DNA from: an uncultured Oscillospiraceae bacterium
GTDB lineage: Bacteria > Bacillota > Clostridia > Oscillospirales > Oscillospiraceae
Reading direction: 5' to 3'
Length of the DNA stretch: 39,419 nt
Assembly (NCBI GenBank): GCA_934597585.1
Contig: CAKTSA010000012.1
Span: 1-39,419 of the forward strand
The notes beneath the pieces are model-generated. The model was not told where the DNA came from, did no database searches, and worked only from the letters and a program-made list of their open reading frames with translations. Made by a program: the position numbers and the translations under genes. Below, one piece after another: positions 3,950 through 36,001 of the stretch; within the stretch, counting starts at the first letter, position 1; each line of letters begins with the position of its first letter.

Positions 3950-4128
3950 CCTTTCAGAATTCTTGCAGAAAACTGAAAGGGGAGGGGACTCTGGAGAATC
4001 CCATTGAATTGGGTGCCGAAGGTGTAAGGCGCGAAAGCGCTGAATCTCTCAGGCAAAAGGACAGAGAAGACATTTGTGTGTCTACCTTGTTTCTCCGGAG
4101 TCGCTGCATAGCAGCGGCTCTATTTTTC
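3950..4128 (+). ncRNA. Glycine riboswitch, single aptamer with upstream hairpin
   Basis: The aptamer spans about 3985-4068. It has the family's conserved core: a CTCTGGAGA 5' arm, GCCGAAGG with GTAAGG, a variable GCGC-gaaa-GCGC hairpin, then CTCTCAGGCAAAAGGACAGAG. Only one complete aptamer is present. A perfect 8-bp hairpin (3950-3957 with 3973-3980) sits where the first aptamer of a tandem switch would be, like the so-called ghost aptamer of singlet switches. Downstream, 4092-4102 can pair with 3987-3997 over 11 positions including one G-U. That pairing would break both the aptamer P1 stem and the 5' arm of the terminator at 4098-4128. Ligand binding should therefore favour the terminator, giving an OFF switch. 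This wiring is inference. Confidence 0.93.
4098..4128 (+). terminator. Riboswitch intrinsic terminator (expression platform)
   Basis: GAGTCGCTGC and GCAGCGGCTC pair over 10 bp (one G-U) around an ATA loop, followed by TATTTTT. Its first five bases (4098-4102) are shared with the alternative pairing to the aptamer 5' arm, which makes it a regulated rather than constitutive terminator. Confidence 0.85.
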
Positions 4129-6603: not shown

Positions 6604-7377
6604 TCACGACAGCTTCTGCTGCTTCATCCACACATCCATCACCACGCTGTGGGGCAGGATTTTCGTCAGAGCGGCCTGTCCCCGTGCCACAAAGCCGTAT
6701 TTGCACACATCCTTGCCCCGCCTGGCGTCCCGCCACGTGCGGCGCACGATGTCGTCGGGATCGTACATGGCGGCGTACTTCTTCACCACACCCTCGCCGC
6801 CGGAGGCTGTAGCCCGGTCAAAGAACGCGGTCTTGGTCCAGAAGGGGCACACCGCCATGACCCCCACGCCCTGACGGCGCAGCTCACGGTTCAGCGCCCG
6901 GCTGAAGCTGAGGACAAAGGCCTTGGTCGCACCATAAACGTCGATGTAGGGGATGGGCTGGAAGGCCGCCACCGACGCGATGTTGATGATCTGGCTGCCC
7001 CGGGGCATATAGGGCGCTGTCAGCTGACACATGGCCACCACCGCCTGACAGTTCAGGTCGGTCATGCTCAGATTCACCTCCAGCGGCGTGCCCAGCACCG
7101 CGCCGAACTTGCCGTAGCCGCTGCAATTCATCAGCAGGCCCACCTGCACCGGCTCCTCTGCCAGTGCGGCTTTATAGACGTCAAAGCTGGCCCGGTCGGT
7201 CAGATCCATAGCCAGCACCCGGACAGGGAAGGGCACCGTGTCGCGCAGAGCCTCCAGCTTATCCCGCTGGCGGGCGATGACCCACACCTCGTCAAAGGTA
7301 CCGTATTGGTCCACAGTCTCGGCAAAGCGCTTTCCCATACCGCTGGAAGCACCAGTGATCACGGCAATTTTCTTCAT
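6604..7377 (-). CDS. Short-chain dehydrogenase/reductase (SDR)
   Basis: This 257-residue protein is a classical SDR. It shows the cofactor motif TGASSGMG at residues 8-15, NCSG at 84-87 (the NNAG position), catalytic Ser135, and the YGATK motif with Tyr148 and Lys152. The start chosen is the ATG at 7375-7377, nine bases after AGGAGG; the earlier in-frame ATGs overlap or precede that site. The C-terminal extension after about residue 220 is longer than in minimal SDRs and is rich in basic residues. The substrate cannot be told from sequence. It converges on the MBL gene with 27 nt between stops and diverges from a GNAT gene. Confidence 0.9.
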   Translation of the reverse strand: MKKIAVITGASSGMGKRFAETVDQYGTFDEVWVIARQRDKLEALRDTVPFPVRVLAMDLTDRASFDVYKAALAEEPVQVGLLMNCSGYGKFGAVLGTPLEVNLSMTDLNCQAVVAMCQLTAPYMPRGSQIINIASVAAFQPIPYIDVYGATKAFVLSFSRALNRELRRQGVGVMAVCPFWTKTAFFDRATASGGEGVVKKYAAMYDPDDIVRRTWRDARRGKDVCKYGFVARGQAALTKILPHSVVMDVWMKQQKLS

Positions 7378-7405
7378 AGGGGACATCCTCCTTTTCTTTG
7401 CCTCC

Positions 7406-7434
7406 ATTATGCCATGAAAGGGGCGGCTTTGCAA
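7406..7434 (-). promoter_or_regulatory. sigma-A promoter of the SDR gene
   Basis: On the minus strand TTGCAA (7429-7434), 17 nt, CATAAT (7406-7411). It lies back to back with the GNAT promoter at 7446, with 11 nt between the two -35 boxes. Confidence 0.65.
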
Positions 7435-7445
7435 GGGTGAAGCCC

Positions 7446-7474
7446 TTGACATGCGGCGCGCCTTTGCCTATAAT
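7446..7474 (+). promoter_or_regulatory. sigma-A promoter of the GNAT gene
   Basis: TTGACA (7446-7451), 17-nt spacer, TATAAT (7469-7474): a full consensus promoter, so the downstream gene is likely strongly transcribed. Confidence 0.85.
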
Positions 7475-7501
7475 ACGAAAAAACGACCAGGAGGGCTTCC
7501 C

Positions 7502-8023
7502 ATGTTCCGAAAAGGCACCGAACAGGATATCCCGCATATCGCGGCCATCTATGAGCACATCCACGACAACGAGAAGAGCGGCAGGTCTACCGTAGGCTGG
7601 ATCCGTGGCGTATATCCCACGGCGGACACGGCCCGCGCGGCACTGGAGGCCGATGACCTGTTCGTCATGGAGGAAAACGGCGCGGTGGTGGCAGCGGCCC
7701 GCATCAATAAGATCCAGGTGCCGGTGTACGCCGATGTACCCTGGCGCTATCCGGACGTGCCGGATGAGCAGGTGATGGTGCTGCACACGCTGGTGGTGGA
7801 GCCCGCCTGCTCCGGAAAGGGCTACGGCACGGCGTTCGTGAAGTTCTATGAGGACTACGCCCGGGAAAACGGCTGCCCCTATCTGCGAATGGACACCAAC
7901 GCCCGCAATAAGACAGCCCGGAAAATGTACGCCGGCCTCGGCTATTGGGAGGCGGGCATCATGCCCTGTGTGTTCAACGGCATCCCCGGCGTGCAGTTGG
8001 TCTGCCTGGAAAAGAAGCTATAA
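7502..8023 (+). CDS. GNAT-family N-acetyltransferase
   Basis: This 173-residue protein is a single GNAT domain. The acetyl-CoA loop reads EPACSGKGYGTAFVKF near residues 100-115, preceded by the VMVLHTLVV strand and followed by LRMDTNARNKTARKMYAGLGYW, the usual motif B region. The start ATG at 7502 follows AGGAGG. It has its own consensus promoter and terminator, so it is a single-gene transcript. The acceptor substrate is unknown. Confidence 0.9.
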   Translation: MFRKGTEQDIPHIAAIYEHIHDNEKSGRSTVGWIRGVYPTADTARAALEADDLFVMEENGAVVAAARINKIQVPVYADVPWRYPDVPDEQVMVLHTLVVEPACSGKGYGTAFVKFYEDYARENGCPYLRMDTNARNKTARKMYAGLGYWEAGIMPCVFNGIPGVQLVCLEKKL

Positions 8024-8032
8024 AATCCCCCA

Positions 8033-8063
8033 ACCGGGGCCGTGAAAGCGGCCCCGGTCTTTT
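8033..8063 (+). terminator. Intrinsic terminator after the GNAT gene
   Basis: ACCGGGGCCG pairs with CGGCCCCGGT around a short loop, followed by CTTTTC. Confidence 0.85.
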
Positions 8064-8100
8064 CTTGCAAAAAATGTCAGTTTCTGCCATATCCTTAACG

Positions 8101-8128
8101 TTCCATTAACGGCATCCGGGCGTATAAT
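8101..8128 (+). promoter_or_regulatory. Probable promoter of the ATPase/VWA operon
   Basis: A perfect TATAAT (8123-8128) is preceded by a poor -35 (TTCCAT, 8101-8106, 16-nt spacer). A weak -35 hints at an activator or low basal use; this is inference. Confidence 0.5.
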
Positions 8129-8174
8129 ATGCCATCAAAAAAGAATATGCCAAATGCAGAAGGGCGGTATGATC

Positions 8175-9095
8175 ATGGATATTTGGAAAGAGCTTCAGGA
8201 CGAGGGTATCGACAAGGCGCTGCTGGACGAGATACGGCAGTTCCGCGCGGCGCATCCCGCCACGCCGGAGGCGGCGGCACGGATCCCGGTACCGCGCTTT
8301 TTGTACTACGGCAAGGAGATCTGGGAGAGTGCGGCGGCGGCGCTGCTGTGCGGCGAGCATCTGCTGCTGGCAGGCCCCAAGGCCACCGGCAAAAACGTGC
8401 TGGCGGAGAACCTTGCCGCCGTGTTCGGCCGCCCCAGCTGGGATGTGTCCATGTATGTGAACGTGGACGCCGCCTCCCTCATTGGCGCGGATACCCTGAA
8501 GGACGGCAAGGTGGTGTTCCGTGAGGGCCCCATCTGCCAGTGCGCCCGCATGGGCGGCTTCGGCGTGCTGGACGAGGTGAATATGGCGAAGAACGAAGCC
8601 CTGGCGGTGCTGCACGCCACGCTGGACTTCCGCCGCGTCATCGATGTCCCCGGCTACGAGCGCATCGAGCTGGATCCCGCCACCCGCTTCATCGGCACCA
8701 TGAACTACGGCTACGCCGGTACCCGCGAGCTGAACGAGGCCCTGGTGTCCCGCTTCGTGGTGCTGGACATGCCCGTGATCTCCGAGGAAAATCTGCAGAA
8801 GCTGCTGCGCCGCGGCTTCCCCGGTCTGAGTGACAAGTGGATCCAGCAGTTCTCCGCCCTGTTCCGCGACCTGCGGCAGAAGTGCGACAACGGCGAGATC
8901 TCCACCAAGGCCCTGGACCTCCGCGGCCTCCTGTCGTCCCTGCACCTGATCGAAAAGGGCATCACCTCTGGCGAGGCGCTGAAGCTGGGCATCATCAACA
9001 AGGCCTTCGATCCCTTCGAGCGGCAGCTGGTGGCGGACGCGGTGTGGAGCCGCATCCCCAAGGATGCCGACCAGTCGAAGCTGTTTGGCAACTGA
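8175..9095 (+). CDS. MoxR/CbbQ-like AAA ATPase
   Basis: This 306-residue protein has an AAA ATPase module of the MoxR/NorQ/CbbQ type (AAA_5). Walker A is GPKATGKN at residues 67-74, with Asn where Ser or Thr normally binds magnesium. Walker B is GFGVLDEVNMA, and sensor 1 is FIGTMNYGY, with an arginine in the ALVSRFV segment. The start is ambiguous: ATGs at 8169 and 8175 both lie near GAAGGG; 8175 gives the better spacing of 10 nt. It ends one base before the ATG of a VWA-domain partner. In this family the ATPase and VWA protein act as a chaperone pair that activates or inserts metal into a client enzyme, but no client gene is adjacent here. Confidence 0.9.
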   Translation: MDIWKELQDEGIDKALLDEIRQFRAAHPATPEAAARIPVPRFLYYGKEIWESAAAALLCGEHLLLAGPKATGKNVLAENLAAVFGRPSWDVSMYVNVDAASLIGADTLKDGKVVFREGPICQCARMGGFGVLDEVNMAKNEALAVLHATLDFRRVIDVPGYERIELDPATRFIGTMNYGYAGTRELNEALVSRFVVLDMPVISEENLQKLLRRGFPGLSDKWIQQFSALFRDLRQKCDNGEISTKALDLRGLLSSLHLIEKGITSGEALKLGIINKAFDPFERQLVADAVWSRIPKDADQSKLFGN

Positions 9096-9096
9096 T

Positions 9097-10806
9097 ATGG
9101 ACAGAGAAGATATCCAGAGCCGCCGCGCGGCCAACCAGGTATGGAACGGCGCGGAGAACTACGACGTCCGCCCGGAGTTCCAGGCCTATGCCCCAGACGG
9201 CGCGGCCCAGCTCTATATGAACACCATCATCGGCCTTGTGTACCGCTGCTATCAATTTGATCAGTTCAAGCCGCTGTTCCACACCTTCCAGCACCAGCCC
9301 AAGGGCGAGTTGTACAGCGACCTGTTCTGGCTGGGCCTGGAGGGCGTGGCCTATCAGAAGTCGCTGCGGGGCCGCCCTGTGCTGGAGGAACTGCGGCGGG
9401 AGTACGCCCGCCAGCTGCTGGCCCAGTCCCACGCCGCCGATCCGCGGAGCATGGAGGGCCTGCGGACGGCCTGGTTCCGCCGGGCGCTGCATGCACCTCA
9501 GGAGGATGCCTGGCAGAAGGAAGTGCTGGACGCCCTGACCTTTGATCCCACGTGGGACGAGCAGCAGATCATGGAGCATATGGAAGCGCTGCTGTTCCGC
9601 TATTTCCAGCGGGTCCGCCGCAGCGTCACTGACCGGCAGTGGAGCATGTGGGCGGGGCGCTCCATCGGCGGCCGTGGCAGAAAGACCAGCCGCTTCGTGC
9701 GGCCCAATGCCCTGCGCCGCCTGGAGCAGTCCGGCGGCGGCCCCGACGAGGAGGAGACCGGGAAAAAGCGCCCTCACCCCCTGTCCTTCTTACAGGGCAG
9801 AACGCCGGAGCCCATCCTGCGGCGCTATGTGGAGGACTGCTTTGGCGTCTCCATGCTGACGCCGCCGGAGCTGGCCCAGGTGGAGCGTGAGCTGTGCACC
9901 GGCGTGCATAAAAACTGCCGTCTCCACTTCACCAAGGGCGTCCCCGTCCAGCATGAGCTGAGCCGGGAAACCGCCTGGGATGTGGGCACCTTCCGCCAAC
10001 AGCGTGAGAAAAACCGCGCCTACTACCAGTCCCACCTGGTGGAAAACAAGCTCATCATCGCCCAGTTGACTCAGAAGCTGCAGAACACCATTCTGCTGCA
10101 AAGCGACGTGTCCGCCAACCTGGCCCGTGCGGGACAACTGTACGCCCCTGTGGTGTGGCGCAGCGCTGTGCTGGACGAGGAAAAGGTGTTCGTCCAGCGG
10201 CAGCAGAGCGAGCTGGGCGACCTGACGGTGGACATCCTGCTGGATGGCTCCGCCTCCCAGAACCAGCAGCAGGAGAAGCTGTCCACCCAGGCGTACCTCA
10301 TTGCGGAAAGCCTGGAGCGCTGCCGCATCCCTGTGCGGGTGACGGCATTCTGCTCCGTCAGCGGCTGCACGGTGCTGCGGATCCTGCGGGACTATGACCA
10401 GACCGGGAAGAACGACGCCATCTTCGATTATGTGGCCGCCGGGTGGAACCGGGACGGCCTGGCCCTGCGGGCCATGGGCTGGCTGATGCGGCGGGGAAGA
10501 GCCGACCACCGGCTGCTGATCATCCTGTCCGATGCCAGCCCCAACGATGACCAGCGTATCCCCATCGGTGCGCTGCCCCTGGGCGGCTATGTCTACAGCG
10601 GCAAGCGCGGCGTAGAGGACACCGCCGCCGAGGCGGGCATCCTGCGCCATCAGGGCATCACACCGGTGTGCGTCTTTACCGGCAGTGACCTGGAGCTGGA
10701 GAGCGGCCGCAAGATCTACGGCAAGGCCCTGACCCGCATTCCCACCATCGGCTGGTTTGCCGATGCCGTCAGCAAGCTGATCCAGGGGCAAATACGACAG
10801 TTATAG
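9097..10806 (+). CDS. VWA domain protein, partner of the MoxR-like ATPase
   Basis: This 569-residue protein has a C-terminal von Willebrand A domain. The metal-ion-dependent adhesion site reads D-G-S-A-S at residues 383-387, inside VDILLDGSAS, with a later LIILSDASPNDD strand. The N-terminal two thirds are helical and rich in Arg and Gln. The ATG begins one base after the upstream stop, so the pair is tightly coupled. The arrangement is that of CbbQ/CbbO, NorQ/NorD and RavA/ViaA systems. The protein is expected to be cytoplasmic: no signal peptide is visible. The target is unknown. Confidence 0.88.
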   Translation: MDREDIQSRRAANQVWNGAENYDVRPEFQAYAPDGAAQLYMNTIIGLVYRCYQFDQFKPLFHTFQHQPKGELYSDLFWLGLEGVAYQKSLRGRPVLEELRREYARQLLAQSHAADPRSMEGLRTAWFRRALHAPQEDAWQKEVLDALTFDPTWDEQQIMEHMEALLFRYFQRVRRSVTDRQWSMWAGRSIGGRGRKTSRFVRPNALRRLEQSGGGPDEEETGKKRPHPLSFLQGRTPEPILRRYVEDCFGVSMLTPPELAQVERELCTGVHKNCRLHFTKGVPVQHELSRETAWDVGTFRQQREKNRAYYQSHLVENKLIIAQLTQKLQNTILLQSDVSANLARAGQLYAPVVWRSAVLDEEKVFVQRQQSELGDLTVDILLDGSASQNQQQEKLSTQAYLIAESLERCRIPVRVTAFCSVSGCTVLRILRDYDQTGKNDAIFDYVAAGWNRDGLALRAMGWLMRRGRADHRLLIILSDASPNDDQRIPIGALPLGGYVYSGKRGVEDTAAEAGILRHQGITPVCVFTGSDLELESGRKIYGKALTRIPTIGWFADAVSKLIQGQIRQL

Positions 10807-27868: not shown

Positions 27869-28639
27869 CTACATTTCGCGCTTGATGCAGGCGATGGCCC
27901 CCTTCTCCAGACGGCTCACCTGGGCCTGGGAAATGCCGATCTCCGACGAGACCTCCATCTGGGTTTTTCCCTGGCAGAACCGCAGGGCAAGGATATTCCG
28001 CTGCCGCTCATCCAGCCGGGCAATGGCGTCCTTCAGGCTGATCTGCTCCAGCCAGTGCTCGTCGCTGTTGCTGTTGTCCCGCACCTGATCCATGACGCAC
28101 ACATTGTCCCCGGCGTCGGAATACACCGGCTCATACAGGCTGACCGGGTCCACGATGGCGTCCATGGCCATCACCACATCCTCCCGGGGGATGCCCAGAT
28201 GGGCGGCGATCTGCTCTACGCTGGGCTCCCGCTGCTGCTGAGCCATCAGCTGTTCCCGGGCCTGCAGCACCCGATAGGCGGTGTCCCGCATGGAGCGGGA
28301 CACGCGGATGGCGGAGTTGTCCCGCAGATAGCGCCGGATCTCACCGATGATCATCGGCACGCCATAGGTGCTGAAGCGCACCGGCTGATTCAGGTCAAAG
28401 TTGTCGATGGCCTTGATAAGGCCGATGCATCCCACCTGAAACAGGTCGTCCACATTCTCGCCCCGGCCCAGGAAGCGCTGGATCACCGACAGCACCAGCC
28501 GCAGATTGCCGCAGATCAGCTGCTCCCGGGCGCTTTTGTCCCCCGCGCGGCAGCGCCGCAGCAGCGCCATCATCTCGTCATTTTTCAGTACCTTCAGATC
28601 CGCCGTATTGATGCCGCAGATCTCCACTTTCCCCCGCAT
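27869..28639 (-). CDS. sigG: Sporulation sigma factor sigma-G
   Basis: This 256-residue sigma-70-family factor directs late forespore transcription. It starts MRGKVEICGINTADLKVLKN, nearly matching the B. subtilis SigG start. Region 2 (GNLRLVLSVIQRFLGRGENVDDLFQVG, then FSTYGVPMIIGEIRRYLRD), the EPSVEQIAAHLG region 3 and the region 4 helix-turn-helix (TQMEVSSEIGISQAQVSRLEK) are complete. The start is the ATG at 28637-28639, seven bases after GGAGG. In many spore formers sigG follows spoIIGA-sigE; here it stands alone and diverges from a YlmC/YmxH gene. A sigma-F-like promoter lies about 30 nt upstream of the start. Confidence 0.97.
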   Translation of the reverse strand: MRGKVEICGINTADLKVLKNDEMMALLRRCRAGDKSAREQLICGNLRLVLSVIQRFLGRGENVDDLFQVGCIGLIKAIDNFDLNQPVRFSTYGVPMIIGEIRRYLRDNSAIRVSRSMRDTAYRVLQAREQLMAQQQREPSVEQIAAHLGIPREDVVMAMDAIVDPVSLYEPVYSDAGDNVCVMDQVRDNSNSDEHWLEQISLKDAIARLDERQRNILALRFCQGKTQMEVSSEIGISQAQVSRLEKGAIACIKREM

Positions 28640-28668
28640 GCGTGCGCCTCCGTCCCGTTGTTTGCTTC

Positions 28669-28698
28669 CAGTATTTCCGGCAGAGATAGCGGTTATTC
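28669..28698 (-). promoter_or_regulatory. Candidate sigma-F promoter of sigG
   Basis: On the minus strand GGAAATACTG (28669-28678) fits the sigma-F -10 pattern GGNRANAHTR at all defined positions. GAATA (28694-28698) is a fair -35 match to GYWTA, with a 15-nt spacer (16 is usual). Sigma-F control of sigG is established in B. subtilis. The consensus is quoted from memory. Confidence 0.5.
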
Positions 28699-28727
28699 TC
28701 CGCCGCGAAAAGAGTGCGGAATCGACG

Positions 28728-28757
28728 GAATAGGACAGCCTGGGGCGCGCATATACT
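28728..28757 (+). promoter_or_regulatory. Candidate sigma-E promoter of the YlmC/YmxH gene
   Basis: GAATAGG (28728-28734), 15 nt, CATATACT (28750-28757). The -10 differs from CATACANT at one defined position. It is divergent from the sigG promoter with 29 nt between the two -35 elements. Confidence 0.45.
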
Positions 28758-28775
28758 GCCTGCGAGGTGGGAACT

Positions 28776-29060
28776 ATGCTTGTAAGATTTTGCCAGCTGC
28801 GGCGCAAGGAGGTCATCAATCTCTGCGACGGCTGCCGCCTGGGCTATGTGGGGGATCTGGAGATCTGCCTGCCGGAGGGAACGGTGAAGGCCATCATCGT
28901 ATTCGGCCCCTGCCGCTTCTTCGGCCTGTTCGGCAGGGGAGAGGACTACTACATCCCGTGGGACTGCGTGCAGAAATTCGGGGATGACATTGTGCTGATC
29001 GACAAGCCCTTCCAGCGGCGGGAGGGGCCGCCCAACCAGAAAAAGCGGCGCAAATTCTGA
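28776..29060 (+). CDS. YlmC/YmxH-family sporulation protein
   Basis: This 94-residue PRC-barrel-like protein matches the YlmC/YmxH family: MLVRFCQLRRKEVINLCDGCRLGYVGDLEI, FGPCRFFGLFGRGEDYYIPWDCVQKFGDDIVLID, and a basic tail. Family members are found in spore formers near sigE/sigG; the molecular role is unknown. The ATG at 28776 follows GAGGTGGG; a GTG 9 nt earlier overlaps that site. It diverges from sigG and precedes rpsB by about 200 nt. Confidence 0.9.
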   Translation: MLVRFCQLRRKEVINLCDGCRLGYVGDLEICLPEGTVKAIIVFGPCRFFGLFGRGEDYYIPWDCVQKFGDDIVLIDKPFQRREGPPNQKKRRKF

Positions 29061-31063: not shown

Positions 31064-31258
31064 TTACTGCACCGCTGCCTCGTCCATATAATCCGCTGCA
31101 TTTTCATCGGCGCGCAGGGACTGGAACCGCTCCTTTTTCTCGTGGAGCCAGTCCAACAGGCGCTGGTCCAGGTTCCAATAATACACCGCCGCCACCACGC
31201 CGGCGATGGCCGCCAGAATGGCGAATACCTTCAGGATGATCTTACCGGTTTTGCACAT
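31064..31258 (-). CDS. Small single-pass membrane protein
   Basis: This 64-residue protein begins MCKTGKIILKVFAILAAIAG with one hydrophobic segment (about residues 7-27), then a charged tail containing QRLLDWLHEKKERFQSL and an acidic end. The ATG at 31256-31258 follows AGGAGG at good spacing. A near-consensus promoter lies upstream and a terminator downstream. I do not recognise the family; similar tiny membrane proteins are common in gut Clostridia. The gene is probably real from its start signals. Confidence 0.75.
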   Translation of the reverse strand: MCKTGKIILKVFAILAAIAGVVAAVYYWNLDQRLLDWLHEKKERFQSLRADENAADYMDEAAVQ

Positions 31259-31376: not shown

Positions 31377-31405
31377 TCACCGTTGATGAGAAGGGGTCAT
31401 AAGAT
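31377..31405 (+). promoter_or_regulatory. Candidate sigma-E promoter of the spoVM pair
   Basis: CATAAGAT (31398-31405) fits the CATANNNT pattern of sigma-E -10 elements. The -35 (TCACCGT, 31377-31383, 14-nt spacer) is weak. It lies 33 nt before the first small gene. Confidence 0.35.
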
Positions 31406-31438: not shown

Positions 31439-31591
31439 ATGAGAGGGCACGGAGAGCACTGTCTCGGCATCTGCGCACTGGCATTGGGACTGGGCATTTT
31501 CATCGCTGCCGTGTTTCCGGTGGGATGCTTGATGTTTCTGGTGGCCTTCCTGCTGATCGCTTGCGGTATCGCATGTCTGAGAAGGAGGTGA
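31439..31591 (+). CDS. Small hydrophobic protein upstream of spoVM
   Basis: This 50-residue protein (MRGHGEHCLGICALALGLGI start) is almost wholly hydrophobic, with two likely membrane segments split by FPVG, and ends LRRR. The ATG follows GGGAGGAGGG. Its last codons and stop (AGAAGGAGGTGA) also contain the ribosome site of spoVM, so the two small genes are almost certainly translationally coupled. Function unknown. Expression during sporulation is inferred from position only. Confidence 0.75.
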   Translation: MRGHGEHCLGICALALGLGIFIAAVFPVGCLMFLVAFLLIACGIACLRRR

Positions 31592-31595
31592 CGGG

Positions 31596-31670
31596 ATGAA
31601 GATCGTGGTCTGGAAAGCGCCGAAGTTCCTGCAGGGGCTGCTGCGGAGCATTTTCGGAATGAAGGAATAA
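31596..31670 (+). CDS. spoVM: Stage V sporulation protein M (SpoVM)
   Basis: This 24-residue peptide (MKIVVWKAPKFLQGLLRSIF, then GMKE) aligns without gaps to B. subtilis SpoVM (26 residues) at the family's key positions: Lys2, Lys7, Pro9, Lys10, Phe11, Leu12, Gly14, Arg17 and Gly21. SpoVM is an amphipathic helix that lies in the forespore outer membrane, senses its convex curvature (Pro9 matters for this) and recruits SpoIVA. The ATG follows AGGAGGTG by five bases. Position 6 is Trp rather than Ile. It is followed by a SipL-like gene and, farther on, spoIVA, its binding partner. It is easily missed because of its length. Confidence 0.93.
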   Translation: MKIVVWKAPKFLQGLLRSIFGMKE

Positions 31671-31693
31671 ACAAAGGAGCGCCCTCATACAGT
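31665..31693 (+). promoter_or_regulatory. Candidate sigma-E promoter of the sipL-like gene
   Basis: CATACAGT (31686-31693) is an exact match to the sigma-E -10 pattern CATACANT. GAATAAA (31665-31671), 14 nt upstream, matches five of seven -35 positions (KMATATT). It overlaps the spoVM stop codon. Confidence 0.5.
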
Positions 31694-31726
31694 GGACTAA
31701 CAATACGGATAGAGAGGGCTGGACAT

Positions 31727-33229
31727 ATGGAATTGGGCTTGCAATTTGAAGATATTTTCTGTTATGAGGCGACGGCGGGGATCACCACCGCCCATGAGGA
31801 AGCGCTGGAGACTGCCATCCCGGAGTACTGTCCCGACATCGCGCGGATCGTGGACACGACCGGGCGGCTGACCATCCGGGAAAAGCAGCTGGGCGACGAC
31901 CGCTGCACCATTTCGGGCAGCGTGAAGGTCACGGTGCTCTATACCTCGGAGGAGGCCACAGGGCTGCGGAGCATGACGATGTCGGTACCGTTTTCCTGCG
32001 TGCTGGACGACAGGGCGCTGACGCAGTGCGCCTCGGTGTGCGCCAGGGGACGGGTACTGCTGACGGAGGCGCGGGCCATCACGTCGCGGAAGCTGTATAT
32101 CAAGGTTTTGCCAGAGGTGACGGCGACAGGCTATCGGGCGGTCAAGCGGAGACTGTGCAGCGGTGCGCAGGAGGAGCCGACGGTCCGGACACAGTGCCGG
32201 GAAGCGCAGCTGAACCTGTTGACAGCAATTGCTGAAAAGGGATTTTCCTTCACAGATGATGTGCTACTGGAGGAGGGGGAAAAGCCGGAGGATCTGCTGC
32301 TGTATCGGCTGTGCCCCAGTGTTGCATCCGCCCAGCGGCTGGGCAACAAACTGATGGTGAAGGGAGATATGTGGGTCTACGCCATCTACCGGGGCGAGGA
32401 TCAGGCGCTGCGGCAGTATTGCGGCACGCGGCCGTTTTCGCAGATTCTGGATGTGGCGGAGCTGCCTGAGGAGGCGGAATACGTCCTTTATCCCCAGATC
32501 AGCGAGTGTGACGCCAGGATCCTGCGGACGGAGAGCGGCTGCAGCTTTGGCGTGACGGCCCATGTGGAGGTCTGCGTGAAGGCCTATCAGCAGCGGAAGG
32601 TGAACTATGTTTCGGACCTCTACAGCGTCCGGTACGACACGGCGGTGGAGCGGCAGGAGGTCACGGTGCCGTTGGCTGCGCCGGATCGGGTGCTGCGGCA
32701 GGAGGCACAGCTGCGGTTGGAATTCGAGGGCAGTCAGCCCTTTATCAGCGTGACGGCGGTGGACCATACGCCGGTGGAGGTGCTGCCGGAGGAGGATCGG
32801 GCTGCGCTGCGCACCACGCTGCATGTGCATCTGCTCTATCTGGATGAGTCCGGCGCGCCGGTCAGCACAGAGCGTACGGTGGAGGTGGAGGCCTCTGCCG
32901 GTGAGGTCAATGGGCCGGTGTCGGTGTGCTGCTGTGCGGCGGAGCTGCAGTTTTCCGGTGGGGTATGCCTGGTGCGGATACCTGTCGCATTTTTACTGGG
33001 GTGTGCAGGGGAGAAGACGCTCAGCGGCGTCACGGCGGTGACACTGACCGATACGGCGGCTGCGGCCGGGCCCAGTCTGATCCTGTGTCGCCTGGGGCGG
33101 GAGGAGTCGCTGTGGGACATCGCCAAGCGGTATCATACCGACGAGCAGGCGATCCGCAGCGCCAACCAGTTGGAAAAGGATGAGGATGCGGCAAACCGTA
33201 TGCTGCTGATCCCGCGGATCAGGGGATAG
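31727..33229 (+). CDS. sipL: SipL-like spore morphogenesis protein (DUF3794 + LysM)
   Basis: This 500-residue protein starts LGLQFEDIFCYEATAGITT and has repeated DUF3794/SPOCS-type domains across residues 1-430 (for example IPEYCPDIARIVDTTGRLTI and SVKVTVLYTSEE). A C-terminal LysM (LILCRLGREESLWDIAKRYH, then QAIRSANQL) lies at about 452-497. This is the layout of C. difficile SipL, whose LysM region binds SpoIVA to anchor the coat on the forespore; it is the functional counterpart of B. subtilis SpoVID. GAGAGGG precedes the ATG. Its neighbours, spoVM upstream and spoIVA downstream, strongly support the assignment. Confidence 0.88.
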   Translation: MELGLQFEDIFCYEATAGITTAHEEALETAIPEYCPDIARIVDTTGRLTIREKQLGDDRCTISGSVKVTVLYTSEEATGLRSMTMSVPFSCVLDDRALTQCASVCARGRVLLTEARAITSRKLYIKVLPEVTATGYRAVKRRLCSGAQEEPTVRTQCREAQLNLLTAIAEKGFSFTDDVLLEEGEKPEDLLLYRLCPSVASAQRLGNKLMVKGDMWVYAIYRGEDQALRQYCGTRPFSQILDVAELPEEAEYVLYPQISECDARILRTESGCSFGVTAHVEVCVKAYQQRKVNYVSDLYSVRYDTAVERQEVTVPLAAPDRVLRQEAQLRLEFEGSQPFISVTAVDHTPVEVLPEEDRAALRTTLHVHLLYLDESGAPVSTERTVEVEASAGEVNGPVSVCCCAAELQFSGGVCLVRIPVAFLLGCAGEKTLSGVTAVTLTDTAAAAGPSLILCRLGREESLWDIAKRYHTDEQAIRSANQLEKDEDAANRMLLIPRIRG

Positions 33230-33233
33230 GAGA

Positions 33234-33263
33234 AAAAAAGAGCGTCAGGTGACGCTCTTTTTT
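33234..33263. terminator. Bidirectional terminator after the sipL-like gene
   Basis: AAAAAAGAGCGTCA pairs with TGACGCTCTTTTTT over 14 bp. It also covers the last bases of the opposing Ntn-hydrolase gene, whose stop is at 33263-33265. Confidence 0.92.
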
Positions 33264-34360
33264 CATGCATCCACGACGCCGGCCATGGCGTCGCGGGAGA
33301 TGGGGTGTCGCTGGAGCTGCGCGGGGTCGCATGCGGGCAGCGCGATCCGGGTCCAGGCGGTGGAATCGAAGGGCTGCAGGTACATGATTTGCCGGGTGGG
33401 ATCGTACATCACCTTGTACTGGGTGTAGCCGTCACGGGTCTCGGCGGGCAGGCCACTGCTGTTGAGGTGGCGGTAGTGGTAGGCACCCTGGTTCCGGGGC
33501 TCGAATACGCAGCTCAGCAGGCCGCTGCCCAGGGGGAGCATCTGGGCTTCCTCCATCCAGCGGCCGTCGTGATTCAGGGCCTTCAGCACTGCCAGACGCA
33601 CGAAGCGATCATAGGGGGCAAAGGAGGCGGGCAGCACGCCACTCTGGGTCAGGTGAGGCGCGGTGGGGTCCGCTGTCAGGCGGACGCCCTCCCAGGCAGG
33701 CTGACAGATGGGACAGTCGTCGCCGCCTCTGTGCAGCTCCGGCGATTGGGAGAGGAACCACCGTAGATTATCCAGCTGACAGGGATAGGGCGGAGAATTG
33801 GTCATGACGCCGATGCTGTCCGCCTGATAGCAGGTCAGGCGTCCGGGGTGCCGAGGGTCGGCGGCCTCCAGTACCGCCGTATTGCCAGCGGCATCCAGGA
33901 AAAAGTAGTGCATGGTGGCACTCAGCCGTTCCGGCCCGGCGGGGATATCTGTGAGCTGCAGGGTCCCGGCTGTACGGCAGACGTCGGTCACATCCCGGCA
34001 GAAGGCCAGCAGCCACGTGACCAGTTCCATGCCCATGACGCCGGAGCGATCTGCCTCTGCCGTGGGAACGCTGGTGCCCTCCTCCAGAAACAGGAGGCCG
34101 CCCACCAGGCCCTGACTGTTGACGCCGTCCAGCAGCCAGGTGTCCTGGGCACAGTAGGACATTCCCAGCAGGGCATAGCGGGCGTGCAGGGCGCCGTGGG
34201 TCAGGGGGAGCGCCATGCCGGCAGGGAAGGACAACGCATGGGCGCCGGCGTCCCATACGCTGGTGTGCAGGTCACAGGTGCGGAACCAGTAGGGAAGACC
34301 CTGCTTTGACGTCAGCTTCATGCAGGAGCAGCTGGCGGGAAATTCGGTTTTATCGATCAT
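33263..34360 (-). CDS. Choloylglycine hydrolase/penicillin V acylase-family protein
   Basis: This 365-residue protein is an Ntn hydrolase of the linear amide C-N hydrolase group. The nucleophile is probably Cys11: counted from it, Arg27 (+16) and Asp30 (+19) fall at the spacings seen between Cys2, Arg18 and Asp21 in bile-salt hydrolases. Ten residues (MIDKTEFPAS) precede it, so activation would need removal of a short propeptide, as in some penicillin V acylases. The start ATG at 34358-34360 follows AAAGGAG. Substrates of the family include conjugated bile acids, penicillin V and N-acyl homoserine lactones; the one here is unknown. No signal peptide is visible. It lies on the opposite strand between sipL and spoIVA. 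Confidence 0.85.
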   Translation of the reverse strand: MIDKTEFPASCSCMKLTSKQGLPYWFRTCDLHTSVWDAGAHALSFPAGMALPLTHGALHARYALLGMSYCAQDTWLLDGVNSQGLVGGLLFLEEGTSVPTAEADRSGVMGMELVTWLLAFCRDVTDVCRTAGTLQLTDIPAGPERLSATMHYFFLDAAGNTAVLEAADPRHPGRLTCYQADSIGVMTNSPPYPCQLDNLRWFLSQSPELHRGGDDCPICQPAWEGVRLTADPTAPHLTQSGVLPASFAPYDRFVRLAVLKALNHDGRWMEEAQMLPLGSGLLSCVFEPRNQGAYHYRHLNSSGLPAETRDGYTQYKVMYDPTRQIMYLQPFDSTAWTRIALPACDPAQLQRHPISRDAMAGVVDA

Positions 34361-34386
34361 TGTGTTTTCTCCTTTTACATATAGAA

Positions 34387-34416
34387 TCAGTATGCCCGAT
34401 ATATAACGGGCTATGA
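34387..34416 (-). promoter_or_regulatory. Candidate sigma-E-like promoter of the Ntn hydrolase
   Basis: On the minus strand TCATAGC (34410-34416), 15 nt, CATACTGA (34387-34394): five of seven and five of seven defined matches to sigma-E elements. A GCCCG/CGGGC inverted repeat (34394-34411) fills the spacer. Weak; no better sigma-A promoter was found. Confidence 0.35.
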
Positions 34417-34459
34417 AAACGGGAGGGTGGAACGATGGCGGCAATGTAAAAAGGTTTTT

Positions 34460-34488
34460 GCATAGCGGATGGGACACGCGCATAGAAA
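34460..34488 (+). promoter_or_regulatory. Candidate sigma-E promoter of spoIVA
   Basis: GCATAGC (34460-34466), 14 nt, CATAGAAA (34481-34488), 31 nt before the spoIVA start. The CATA core and -35 core match; the last -10 base does not. Sigma-E control of spoIVA is established in B. subtilis. Confidence 0.45.
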
Positions 34489-34519
34489 TGAAATAAAAAC
34501 AGCAGCGGAGGGCGGTACT

Positions 34520-36001
34520 ATGAATCAATCCACTTGTATGTATCAGGATATGGCGGCGCGAACCCAGAACAGCATTTACATCGGCGTGGTGGGACCGGTC
34601 AGAACGGGAAAATCCACATTCATCAAGCGATTTATGGAGACTCAGGTGATCCCACACATCGACAACGCGTACCGCCGGGACCGGGCTGTCGACGAGCTGC
34701 CGCAGAGCGGCTCCGGGCGTACCATCATGACGGCGGAGCCGAAGTTCGTCCCGGAGGAGGCGGTGGAGGTCCGGCTGGAGGAGGGCGTCAGCTTCTCGGT
34801 GCGGATGATCGACTGTGTGGGGTACATGGTCCCCGGCGCGGTGGGGCAGTTTGAGGATCTGGCGCCCCGGATGGTGATGACACCGTGGTACGACTATGAG
34901 ATCCCCATGACGGAGGCGGCGGAGATCGGCACCAGGAAGGTCATCACGGATCACTCTACCGTGGGCATCGTGATCACCACGGACGGCACGGTGACGGATA
35001 TCCCACGGCAGGATTATGAGGAGGCGGAGGAGCGGGTGATCCGGGAGCTGCAGGAGATCGGCAAGCCCTTCGTTGTGCTGCTGAACTCCAGCGACCCGGC
35101 CGGGGAACGGGCCGGCACCATCGCCGATGAGATTGGCGGCAAATATCACGTGAAGTGCATCCCGGTCAACTGCCTGACGCTGGATGAGGCGGCCATCACG
35201 GCGCTGATGCGCAGCTTGCTGTTCGAATTCCCGCTGCAGGAGCTGGATCTGTATCTTCCCAGCTGGGTAGAGGCGCTGCCGCTGGAGCATCCCATCAAGA
35301 GCAGCATCTATCAGACGGTGCGGGAGGAGGCCCGCCAGCTGAACTGTATCCGCGAGCTGGAGGGAGCGCTGACGGGTATGTGCAGCTGCGAGGCGATCCA
35401 GGGAACGGCGGTGCGGCGCATTGATCTGGGGACCGGGACGGCGGAGGCGGAGCTGCAGCTGCCCAGAGGGCTGTTCTATGACACGCTGAGTCAGCGCTCG
35501 GGGCTGACGGTCACGGACGACGGCGACCTGATGGAGCTGCTGACAGAACTGGGCAAGGCCCGGCAGGAGTATGACAAGGTGGCAGAGGCGGTGAAGTCCG
35601 CACGGGAGAACGGCTACGGCATCGTGATGCCCAGCGTGGAGGAACTGGATCTGGAGGATCCGGAGATCGTGAAACAGGGCGGGCGCTACGGCGTACGGAT
35701 GAAGGCCAGCGCGCCGTCCATCCACATGATCCGGGCAGACATCGAGACCACGGTGTCGCCTATCGTGGGCAACGAAAAGCAGTCGGAGGACATGGTGAAT
35801 TATCTGCTGCAGGAGTTCGAGGGGGATACCAGCAAGATCTGGAACTCCAACATCTTTGGCCGCAGCTTCCACGAGATCGTAGGGGAGGACCTGCAGGCAA
35901 AGCTGAAGCGGATGCCGGCGGACGCCCAGGTGAAGCTGCGGCAGGCGCTGGAGCGCATCATCAACGAGGGCGGCGGCGGACTGATCTGCATTATATTGTA
36001 A
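34520..36001 (+). CDS. spoIVA: Stage IV sporulation protein A (SpoIVA)
   Basis: This 493-residue ATPase polymerises on the forespore surface to form the coat basement layer; B. subtilis SpoIVA has 492 residues. Walker A is GPVRTGKS at residues 25-32. The flanking signatures IYIGVVGPVRTGKSTFIKRF, DELPQSGSGRTIMTAEPKFV, DCVGYMVPGAVG, EIGTRKVITDHSTVGIV and the C-terminal NEGGGGLICIIL are all typical. The start is the ATG at 34520 after GGAGGGCGG; an in-frame ATG at 34469 overlaps the candidate promoter. SpoVM and a SipL-like protein, its binding partners, are encoded 1-3 kb upstream. Confidence 0.98.
   Translation: MNQSTCMYQDMAARTQNSIYIGVVGPVRTGKSTFIKRFMETQVIPHIDNAYRRDRAVDELPQSGSGRTIMTAEPKFVPEEAVEVRLEEGVSFSVRMIDCVGYMVPGAVGQFEDLAPRMVMTPWYDYEIPMTEAAEIGTRKVITDHSTVGIVITTDGTVTDIPRQDYEEAEERVIRELQEIGKPFVVLLNSSDPAGERAGTIADEIGGKYHVKCIPVNCLTLDEAAITALMRSLLFEFPLQELDLYLPSWVEALPLEHPIKSSIYQTVREEARQLNCIRELEGALTGMCSCEAIQGTAVRRIDLGTGTAEAELQLPRGLFYDTLSQRSGLTVTDDGDLMELLTELGKARQEYDKVAEAVKSARENGYGIVMPSVEELDLEDPEIVKQGGRYGVRMKASAPSIHMIRADIETTVSPIVGNEKQSEDMVNYLLQEFEGDTSKIWNSNIFGRSFHEIVGEDLQAKLKRMPADAQVKLRQALERIINEGGGGLICIIL

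Follow-up and report, generated by a model that had tools for sequence, protein, structure and literature searches.

In many Clostridia the gene spoVM is directly preceded by a gene for a 50-amino-acid predicted membrane protein, for which the label SVU (spoVM-upstream) is proposed in this analysis. The two genes form a recurring unit, which in the order Oscillospirales often joins sipL and spoIVA. The starting point is a stretch of 39,419 nucleotides, called the window here, from contig CAKTSA010000012.1 (assembly GCA_934597585.1) of an uncultured Oscillospiraceae bacterium. Within 4.6 kb of the window lie SVU, spoVM, a sipL-like gene, an Ntn hydrolase gene on the opposite strand and spoIVA. 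A sequence-only reading of this DNA had placed spoVM, the sipL-like gene and spoIVA within 4.6 kb, with one opposite-strand gene between them, and both gene calls and coordinates confirm this. With a probability of about 0.5, the locus serves the mother cell in building the basement layer of the spore coat, and SVU would work with SpoVM and with SpoIVA-SipL at the outer forespore membrane.

The linkage of SVU and spoVM was analyzed in 107 genomes drawn evenly from the order, using profiles for SVU (A2, E ≤ 1e-3), spoVM (A4, E ≤ 0.05) and SipL (A3, E ≤ 1e-10). SipL was found in 95 of these genomes, SpoIVA in 94, SVU in 75 and spoVM in 86. SVU and spoVM occur together in 64 genomes, and in all 64 SVU is located directly upstream of spoVM on the same strand, with gaps of 6-239 bases. 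The linkage is also complete (59/59) without the five genomes which had contributed to profile A2; three genomes of the sample (G301, G330 and G337) had supplied spoVM rows to A4. When 20 order genomes were read by eye, 16 showed spoVM at most 182 bases downstream of SVU, and one more (G292) was added by profile. In line with the suggestion that the neighbourhood could reveal other members, it points to the 50-residue membrane protein, a recurrent companion of spoVM, as a likely one.

The same unit is found more widely in the class. In a first screen of loci from Oscillospiraceae and the class, a motif test identified a spoVM open reading frame downstream of 76 of 78 SVU genes, which include a few genomes counted twice. 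A class sample of 245 genomes was then searched with profile A1 and with the wider profile A2 (41 rows). A1 matched 54 genomes, of which one match (G190) was spurious; of the remaining 53 genomes, 47 carry spoVM directly downstream and 6 have no recognisable spoVM. These counts rest on reading the loci and on the spoVM family search, since the motif test alone is unreliable (50/52 on the A1 loci, with several false matches). In the six genomes (G040, G074, G101, G152, G180 and G198) SVU is located between thiN and rpmB, and spoVM was found neither at this site (loci L258, L260, L261, L271, L284 and L276) nor genome-wide. A2 matched 107 of the 245 genomes, 55 of them also with a spoVM family match. 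The two genes are adjacent in 52 of these 55 (31/34 outside the contributors to A2), with a median gap of 30 bases and no other placement within 5 kb, and the three exceptions (G066, G223 and G260) are weak spoVM matches on other contigs.

Sequence comparisons show that SVU encodes a genuine protein, on which purifying selection acts. The window protein shares 88% identity with its relative in G002 and 86% with that in G014, compared to 51 and 42% for SipL. The ratio of nonsynonymous to synonymous differences (pN/pS) between the window and G001 or G020 is 0.13 or 0.09 for SVU, 0.30 or 0.31 for SipL and 0.12 in both cases for SpoIVA, where these ratios, without correction for the near-saturated synonymous sites, make protein change look too large next to silent change. 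Over 12 pairs the SVU ratio does not exceed 0.29 and is below that of SipL in eight. The residues P27 and G43 are near-invariant, as each is present in at least 90% of 41 diverse SVU rows. The structure model of the window protein is a hairpin with predicted helices at residues 2-25 and 28-49 (mean predicted local distance difference test, pLDDT, 80.7; predicted template modelling score, pTM, 0.48). The pattern proposed for the family, two helices with a conserved proline between them and a glycine in the second, is thus present. Basic residues at both ends suggest that both face the mother-cell cytosol.

The window protein matches no Pfam or NCBIfam model above its cut-off. DUF6249 (PF19762; 12.2 bits, cut-off 33) and fucP (13.5 bits, cut-off 280) were rejected as its family. 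Among 19 SVU rows scanned, the lowest E values were 0.0027 in Pfam (PF20712, one row) and 0.016 in NCBIfam (fucP), and nine rows match DUF6249 weakly (best E 0.039). Of 596 relatives 120 were listed, among which one carries a precomputed PF19762 assignment and three are named, one as fucose permease and two as hypothetical protein. With names on just three of the relatives listed, none of them spore-related, this gene is easily missed.

The joining of the unit to sipL and spoIVA was followed in 80 spoIVA loci, the best of 177 spoIVA matches from a scan of public genomes, and in the order sample. In 47 of the 80 loci, sipL together with SVU or spoVM lies at most 9 kb from spoIVA, and 46 of them gave matches to both SVU and spoVM. 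Four further loci have sipL nearby in a partial or inverted arrangement, 18 have no sipL despite at least 6 kb of upstream flank, and 11 end too early. In the order sample, sipL and spoIVA are both present in 92 genomes and lie at most 5 kb apart in 44, of which 43 are colinear (median gap 32 bases); in 42 they are on different contigs and not judgeable, so that the figure for genes on one contig is 44/50. Of 78 order genomes with spoVM, sipL and spoIVA, 22 have the three genes in one cluster; these are 22 of the 29 genomes where all three share a contig. Due to contig breaks these counts are lower bounds; in G355, for example, a second sipL piece on another contig adjoins spoIVA and was left uncounted. 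Of the 71 order genomes with SVU and sipL, 40 have SVU at most 1 kb upstream of sipL, 30 on the same strand and 10 divergently. As 47 of 80 spoIVA loci are clustered and the order sample agrees, the arrangement in the window is not due to chance, and the assumption that it is peculiar to the window was rejected. The cluster is real and ordinary for its order.

Loci of the Oscillibacter type show the order pknB-rsgA-SVU-spoVM-sipL-...-spoIVA-coaX, and the more distant genome G185 shows pknB-rsgA-thiN-SVU-spoVM-sipL-spoIVA. These gene orders suggest that the usual clostridial spoVM site, which has thiN at its side and rpmB facing it, was brought together with sipL and spoIVA. Two other loci (L229 and L230) carry SVU-spoVM divergently from spoIVA at a distance of a few hundred bases, and no sipL was seen within the 9-kb stretch; judging from its gene order, this lineage would be a separate route to a linkage of spoVM and spoIVA. 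In locus L080, a gene reading as a DNA methyltransferase (7228-9995) is located between rsgA and spoIVA, at the expected site of the sipL cassette.

In the clade of the window itself the cluster is mostly broken. A spoIVA tree, calculated by a quick method from 79 rows (seven loci missed by the motif search were left out, and L015 is a fragment), groups the window with L001 (G001) and L040 (G020) with a support of 97. These two nearest sequenced relatives have the order SVU-spoVM-sipL-coaX-pfk-fba, and their spoIVA gene lies elsewhere, in G020 at a distance of about 31 kb within one contig. The expectation that the adjacency recurs in close relatives thus fails for G001 and G020, where coaX and not spoIVA follows sipL, and holds for the family and the order, in which the cluster is common. 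In other near relatives, represented by all 16 stretches L120-L135 (L135 ends after SVU), the SVU-(spoVM-sipL) cassette lies with pknB-rsgA away from spoIVA. In G012, coaX is located about 5 kb from sipL, without spoIVA. Either the window has retained an old order which several relatives broke, or the order was broken once in the clade and restored in the lineage of the window. In 11 of the broken relatives, the genes common to them upstream of spoIVA lie about 20 kb away in the window, which leans toward a single break with the cluster perhaps re-formed in the window lineage. An assembly error at the cluster is unlikely, since the gene order matches that of Oscillibacter.

Putative promoters were found upstream of SVU, sipL and spoIVA (Table 1). 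A -10-like element precedes SVU in 18 of 19 regions of the window clade and in 39 of 47 regions of the Oscillibacter type (0.7 and 1.7 in shuffles). The fuller pattern of AC, 15-18 bases and an ATATACT-like -10 element is present in 17 and 38 of these regions, respectively (shuffles 0.1 and 0.3), though both patterns were picked after viewing the sequences and the loci are related. The shuffles preserve dinucleotides, with a plain shuffle where the dinucleotide draw failed. A sigma-A reading of this promoter was rejected by eye due to its unfit spacing. A GGACA/G box 5′ of the -10 element occurs in 23 of the 47 Oscillibacter-type loci (shuffles 0.1), in one of the 19 loci of the window clade and not in the SVU upstream region of the window. 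It resembles SpoIIID sites and serves as a lead. Sigma-E-type sites were scored against the sigma-E consensus. The mean best score against shuffles gave z = 20 for sipL (64 loci) and z = 12 for spoIVA (72 loci), compared to z = 4.5 before SVU, where no site of at least 12 was found among 66 loci. The putative sipL promoter begins inside the end of spoVM. In C. difficile, sigma-E controls spoIVA, sipL and spoVM, and spoVM of B. subtilis additionally requires SpoIIID (PMC5607322).

Based on these data, the locus would have been inherited or re-formed within its order. Sigma-E would transcribe sipL and spoIVA each from its own promoter, and SVU-spoVM would be transcribed from a separate one. SVU would fold into a hairpin of two helices and reside in the outer forespore membrane, which is also the site of SpoVM. 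Together, SVU and SpoVM would seat or time the SpoIVA-SipL layer, whose SipL binds SpoIVA by its LysM domain, and the coat would therefore stick to the forespore.

Several results weigh against this reading. In C. difficile, insertions in CD25622, the gene upstream of spoVM, are likely polar on spoVM and no worse than insertions in spoVM itself; both cause similar mild defects, with heat resistance reduced 3- to 5-fold (PMC5607322). A strong role of CD25622 on its own is therefore unsupported in C. difficile. CD25622 is a possible counterpart of SVU. Furthermore, the SVU structure model was built from a single sequence, and pN/pS of SVU is above that of SipL in 4 of the 12 pairs. Finally, SVU remained without a match in 22 of the 86 order genomes that have a spoVM match, as did spoVM in 11 of the 75 that have SVU. 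In the class, SVU is missing beside spoVM in 52 of 104 genomes, some of these spoVM matches being weak. SVU is thus common and not universal.

A rather less probable explanation is that SVU serves another process of the outer forespore membrane, e.g., cortex synthesis or its checkpoint, as a functional counterpart of SpoVQ or SsdC, and that its link to spoVM reflects only shared timing. SpoVQ, an outer-forespore-membrane protein of C. difficile, binds SpoIVA and SipL, sets cortex thickness and links coat and cortex (PMC8265636), and the persistence of SVU in the 11 order genomes and the six class genomes without a spoVM match would fit such a role. Against this, SVU is linked to spoVM at rpmB-type sites and beside sipL alike.

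That the clustering is a neutral or expression-driven gene order without physical partnership appears still somewhat more doubtful. Unrelated opposite-strand genes split sipL and spoIVA, which in the Oscillibacter-type loci examined are mostly ABC-transporter genes by sequence and in the window is the hydrolase gene. The cluster is broken in the nearest kin, and a promoter-like site precedes sipL and another precedes spoIVA. The adjacency of SVU and spoVM, on the other hand, is unbroken in the order genomes, and binding of SpoIVA by the LysM domain of SipL, for which W475 is important, is established in C. difficile (PMC6436350). The idea of a leader open reading frame that tunes the translation of spoVM, suggested by a short and hydrophobic SVU directly upstream with mostly small gaps, is very improbable in view of the selection at the amino acid level, the near-invariant P27 and G43, and the retention of SVU where no spoVM was found.

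The main gain of the analysis is SVU itself: many Clostridia carry this conserved microprotein next to spoVM, and its proposed role would be to fasten the coat to the forespore. SVU thereby gives a concrete candidate for a factor that attaches the clostridial coat to the forespore membrane. C. difficile can largely dispense with SpoVM, and SpoVQ, the additional factor known from this species, is reportedly family-specific. Unlikely but worth stating is the possibility that SVU, as an integral hairpin, provides the membrane anchor that has been missing from the clostridial basement layer, and that it shares or, in some lineages, takes over the seating of SpoIVA-SipL by SpoVM. If true, this would account both for the limited need for SpoVM in C. 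difficile and for the genomes in which SVU is retained and no SpoVM is detected. For study, the cluster of commensal Oscillospiraceae has the further advantage of being one compact region.

Table 1. Genes and putative promoters of the spoVM-sipL-spoIVA locus in the window.
Feature	Position	Strand	Description
Putative SVU-spoVM promoter	31379..31405	+	AC (31379-31380), 17 nt, CATAAGAT (31398-31405)
SVU	31439..31591	+	50-aa membrane protein, predicted helical hairpin, break near P27
spoVM	31596..31670	+	24 aa; NF033436 27.3 bits, E 2.6e-6, below curated cut-off 31
Putative sigma-E-type sipL promoter	31665..31693	+	GAATAAA, 14 nt, CATACAGT; 12/15 consensus positions
sipL	31727..33229	+	500 aa; SPOCS domains, C-terminal LysM
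Ntn hydrolase	33263..34360	-	365 aa; CBAH / penicillin V acylase type; passenger gene
Putative sigma-E-type spoIVA promoter	34460..34488	+	GCATAGC, 14 nt, CATAGAAA; 11/15 consensus positions
spoIVA	34520..36001	+	493 aa; TIGR02836 682.4 bits, cut-off 459.9

On the plus strand SVU, spoVM and sipL follow each other, and the minus-strand hydrolase gene is followed by spoIVA, coaX (PF03309), pfk and fba. The genes tsf, rpsB, pfk, fba, pknB, rsgA, thiN, yloU, yebC and rpmB were named by reading sequences and not by family searches. A six-base ribosome-binding site precedes SVU, 4 nt separate SVU from spoVM, and 56 bases separate spoVM from sipL. As the window SpoVM scores below the curated NCBIfam cut-off, its name rests on position and on alignment, in which residues 1-23 align to model positions 1-23 of NF033436. 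P9 is an important residue of SpoVM. In an alignment of 25 sequences the window protein aligns end to end with clostridial SpoVM and has K2 and P9, neither of which is invariant, as well as W and L in place of I6 and I15. K2, I6 and I15 are described as important (PMC5607322).

The SPOCS domain of SipL is above its cut-off (PF12673 in two stretches, 76.4 bits, cut-off 23.6), as is LysM (25.0 bits, cut-off 20.9). The protein aligns over its length with 11 others, with W463 of LysM invariant in 12/12 rows; this residue is probably the counterpart of C. difficile W475, which is needed there for full SpoIVA binding. SpoIVA is full length with ATPase, middle and C-terminal domains (PF09547, PF20438, PF20439). 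Its start was placed at 34520, since counting from this position aligns residue 6 with model position 5, and the ATG at 34469 may be an alternative start.

The product of the hydrolase gene is a CBAH acylase by Pfam (PF02275, 74.8 bits, cut-off 20.4) and stays below NCBIfam equivalog cut-offs. Its matches comprise bile salt hydrolases and penicillin V acylases, including solved acylases. This family has no link to the spore cluster. The sequence-only reading had considered the hydrolase as a possible member of the machine, which was rejected: none was found in the relatives' loci searched, and only remote homologues (29-34% identity) exist in 4 of the 20 nearest genomes, none of them within the sipL/spoIVA flanks examined. 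Unrelated genes seem to settle readily in the gap between sipL and spoIVA.

About 3 kb upstream of the cluster, the window carries sigG (minus strand) and a sporulation gene of the YlmC/YmxH family (27869-29060), which precede genes read as rpsB and tsf; this stretch is also kept in G020. SigG matches NF006071 (421.9 bits, cut-off 372) and stays below the cut-off of TIGR02850 (416.3 bits, cut-off 457). SVU and the gene read as tsf flank a 64-residue open reading frame with one hydrophobic stretch (31064-31258, minus strand), for which family searches found no family above cut-off. A glycine riboswitch aptamer was identified at 3981-4074 (59.3 bits, gathering score 32).

In the literature searched, mostly without subscription papers, the papers listed and the parts available describe neither SVU as a wider clostridial family nor the three-gene cluster, and the available part of PMC13232292 treats ShfA, another forespore membrane protein, and not SVU. 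The closest system is the basement layer of C. difficile (PMC5607322, PMC6436350), which like the window has SpoVM, SpoIVA and SipL, a C-terminal LysM domain and a 50-amino-acid gene upstream of spoVM. It differs in that spoVM lies by rpmB and SipL is CD3567, and the passages available describe no three-gene cluster. These places of spoVM and sipL would fit the earlier statement that the three genes are not side by side in C. difficile. CD25622 resembles the window SVU in its 50 amino acids and its place upstream of spoVM, with which it is cotranscribed; it was termed unique to the Peptostreptococcaceae (PMC5607322). A homologue search with an SVU-like piece from L161 found nothing. SpoVQ (CD3457), whose locus number is far from CD25622, is a mother-cell membrane protein that resides in the outer forespore membrane and is connected with SpoIVA and SipL, as proposed for SVU. 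It differs in being bitopic, since a single membrane segment at the N-terminus is joined to a soluble portion, and is reportedly specific to the Peptostreptococcaceae. SpoVID is restricted to bacilli, with SipL as its functional counterpart (PMC6436350), and the SpoVM-SpoIVA-SpoVID system of B. subtilis works alike, with a membrane peptide, an ATPase scaffold and a LysM protein.

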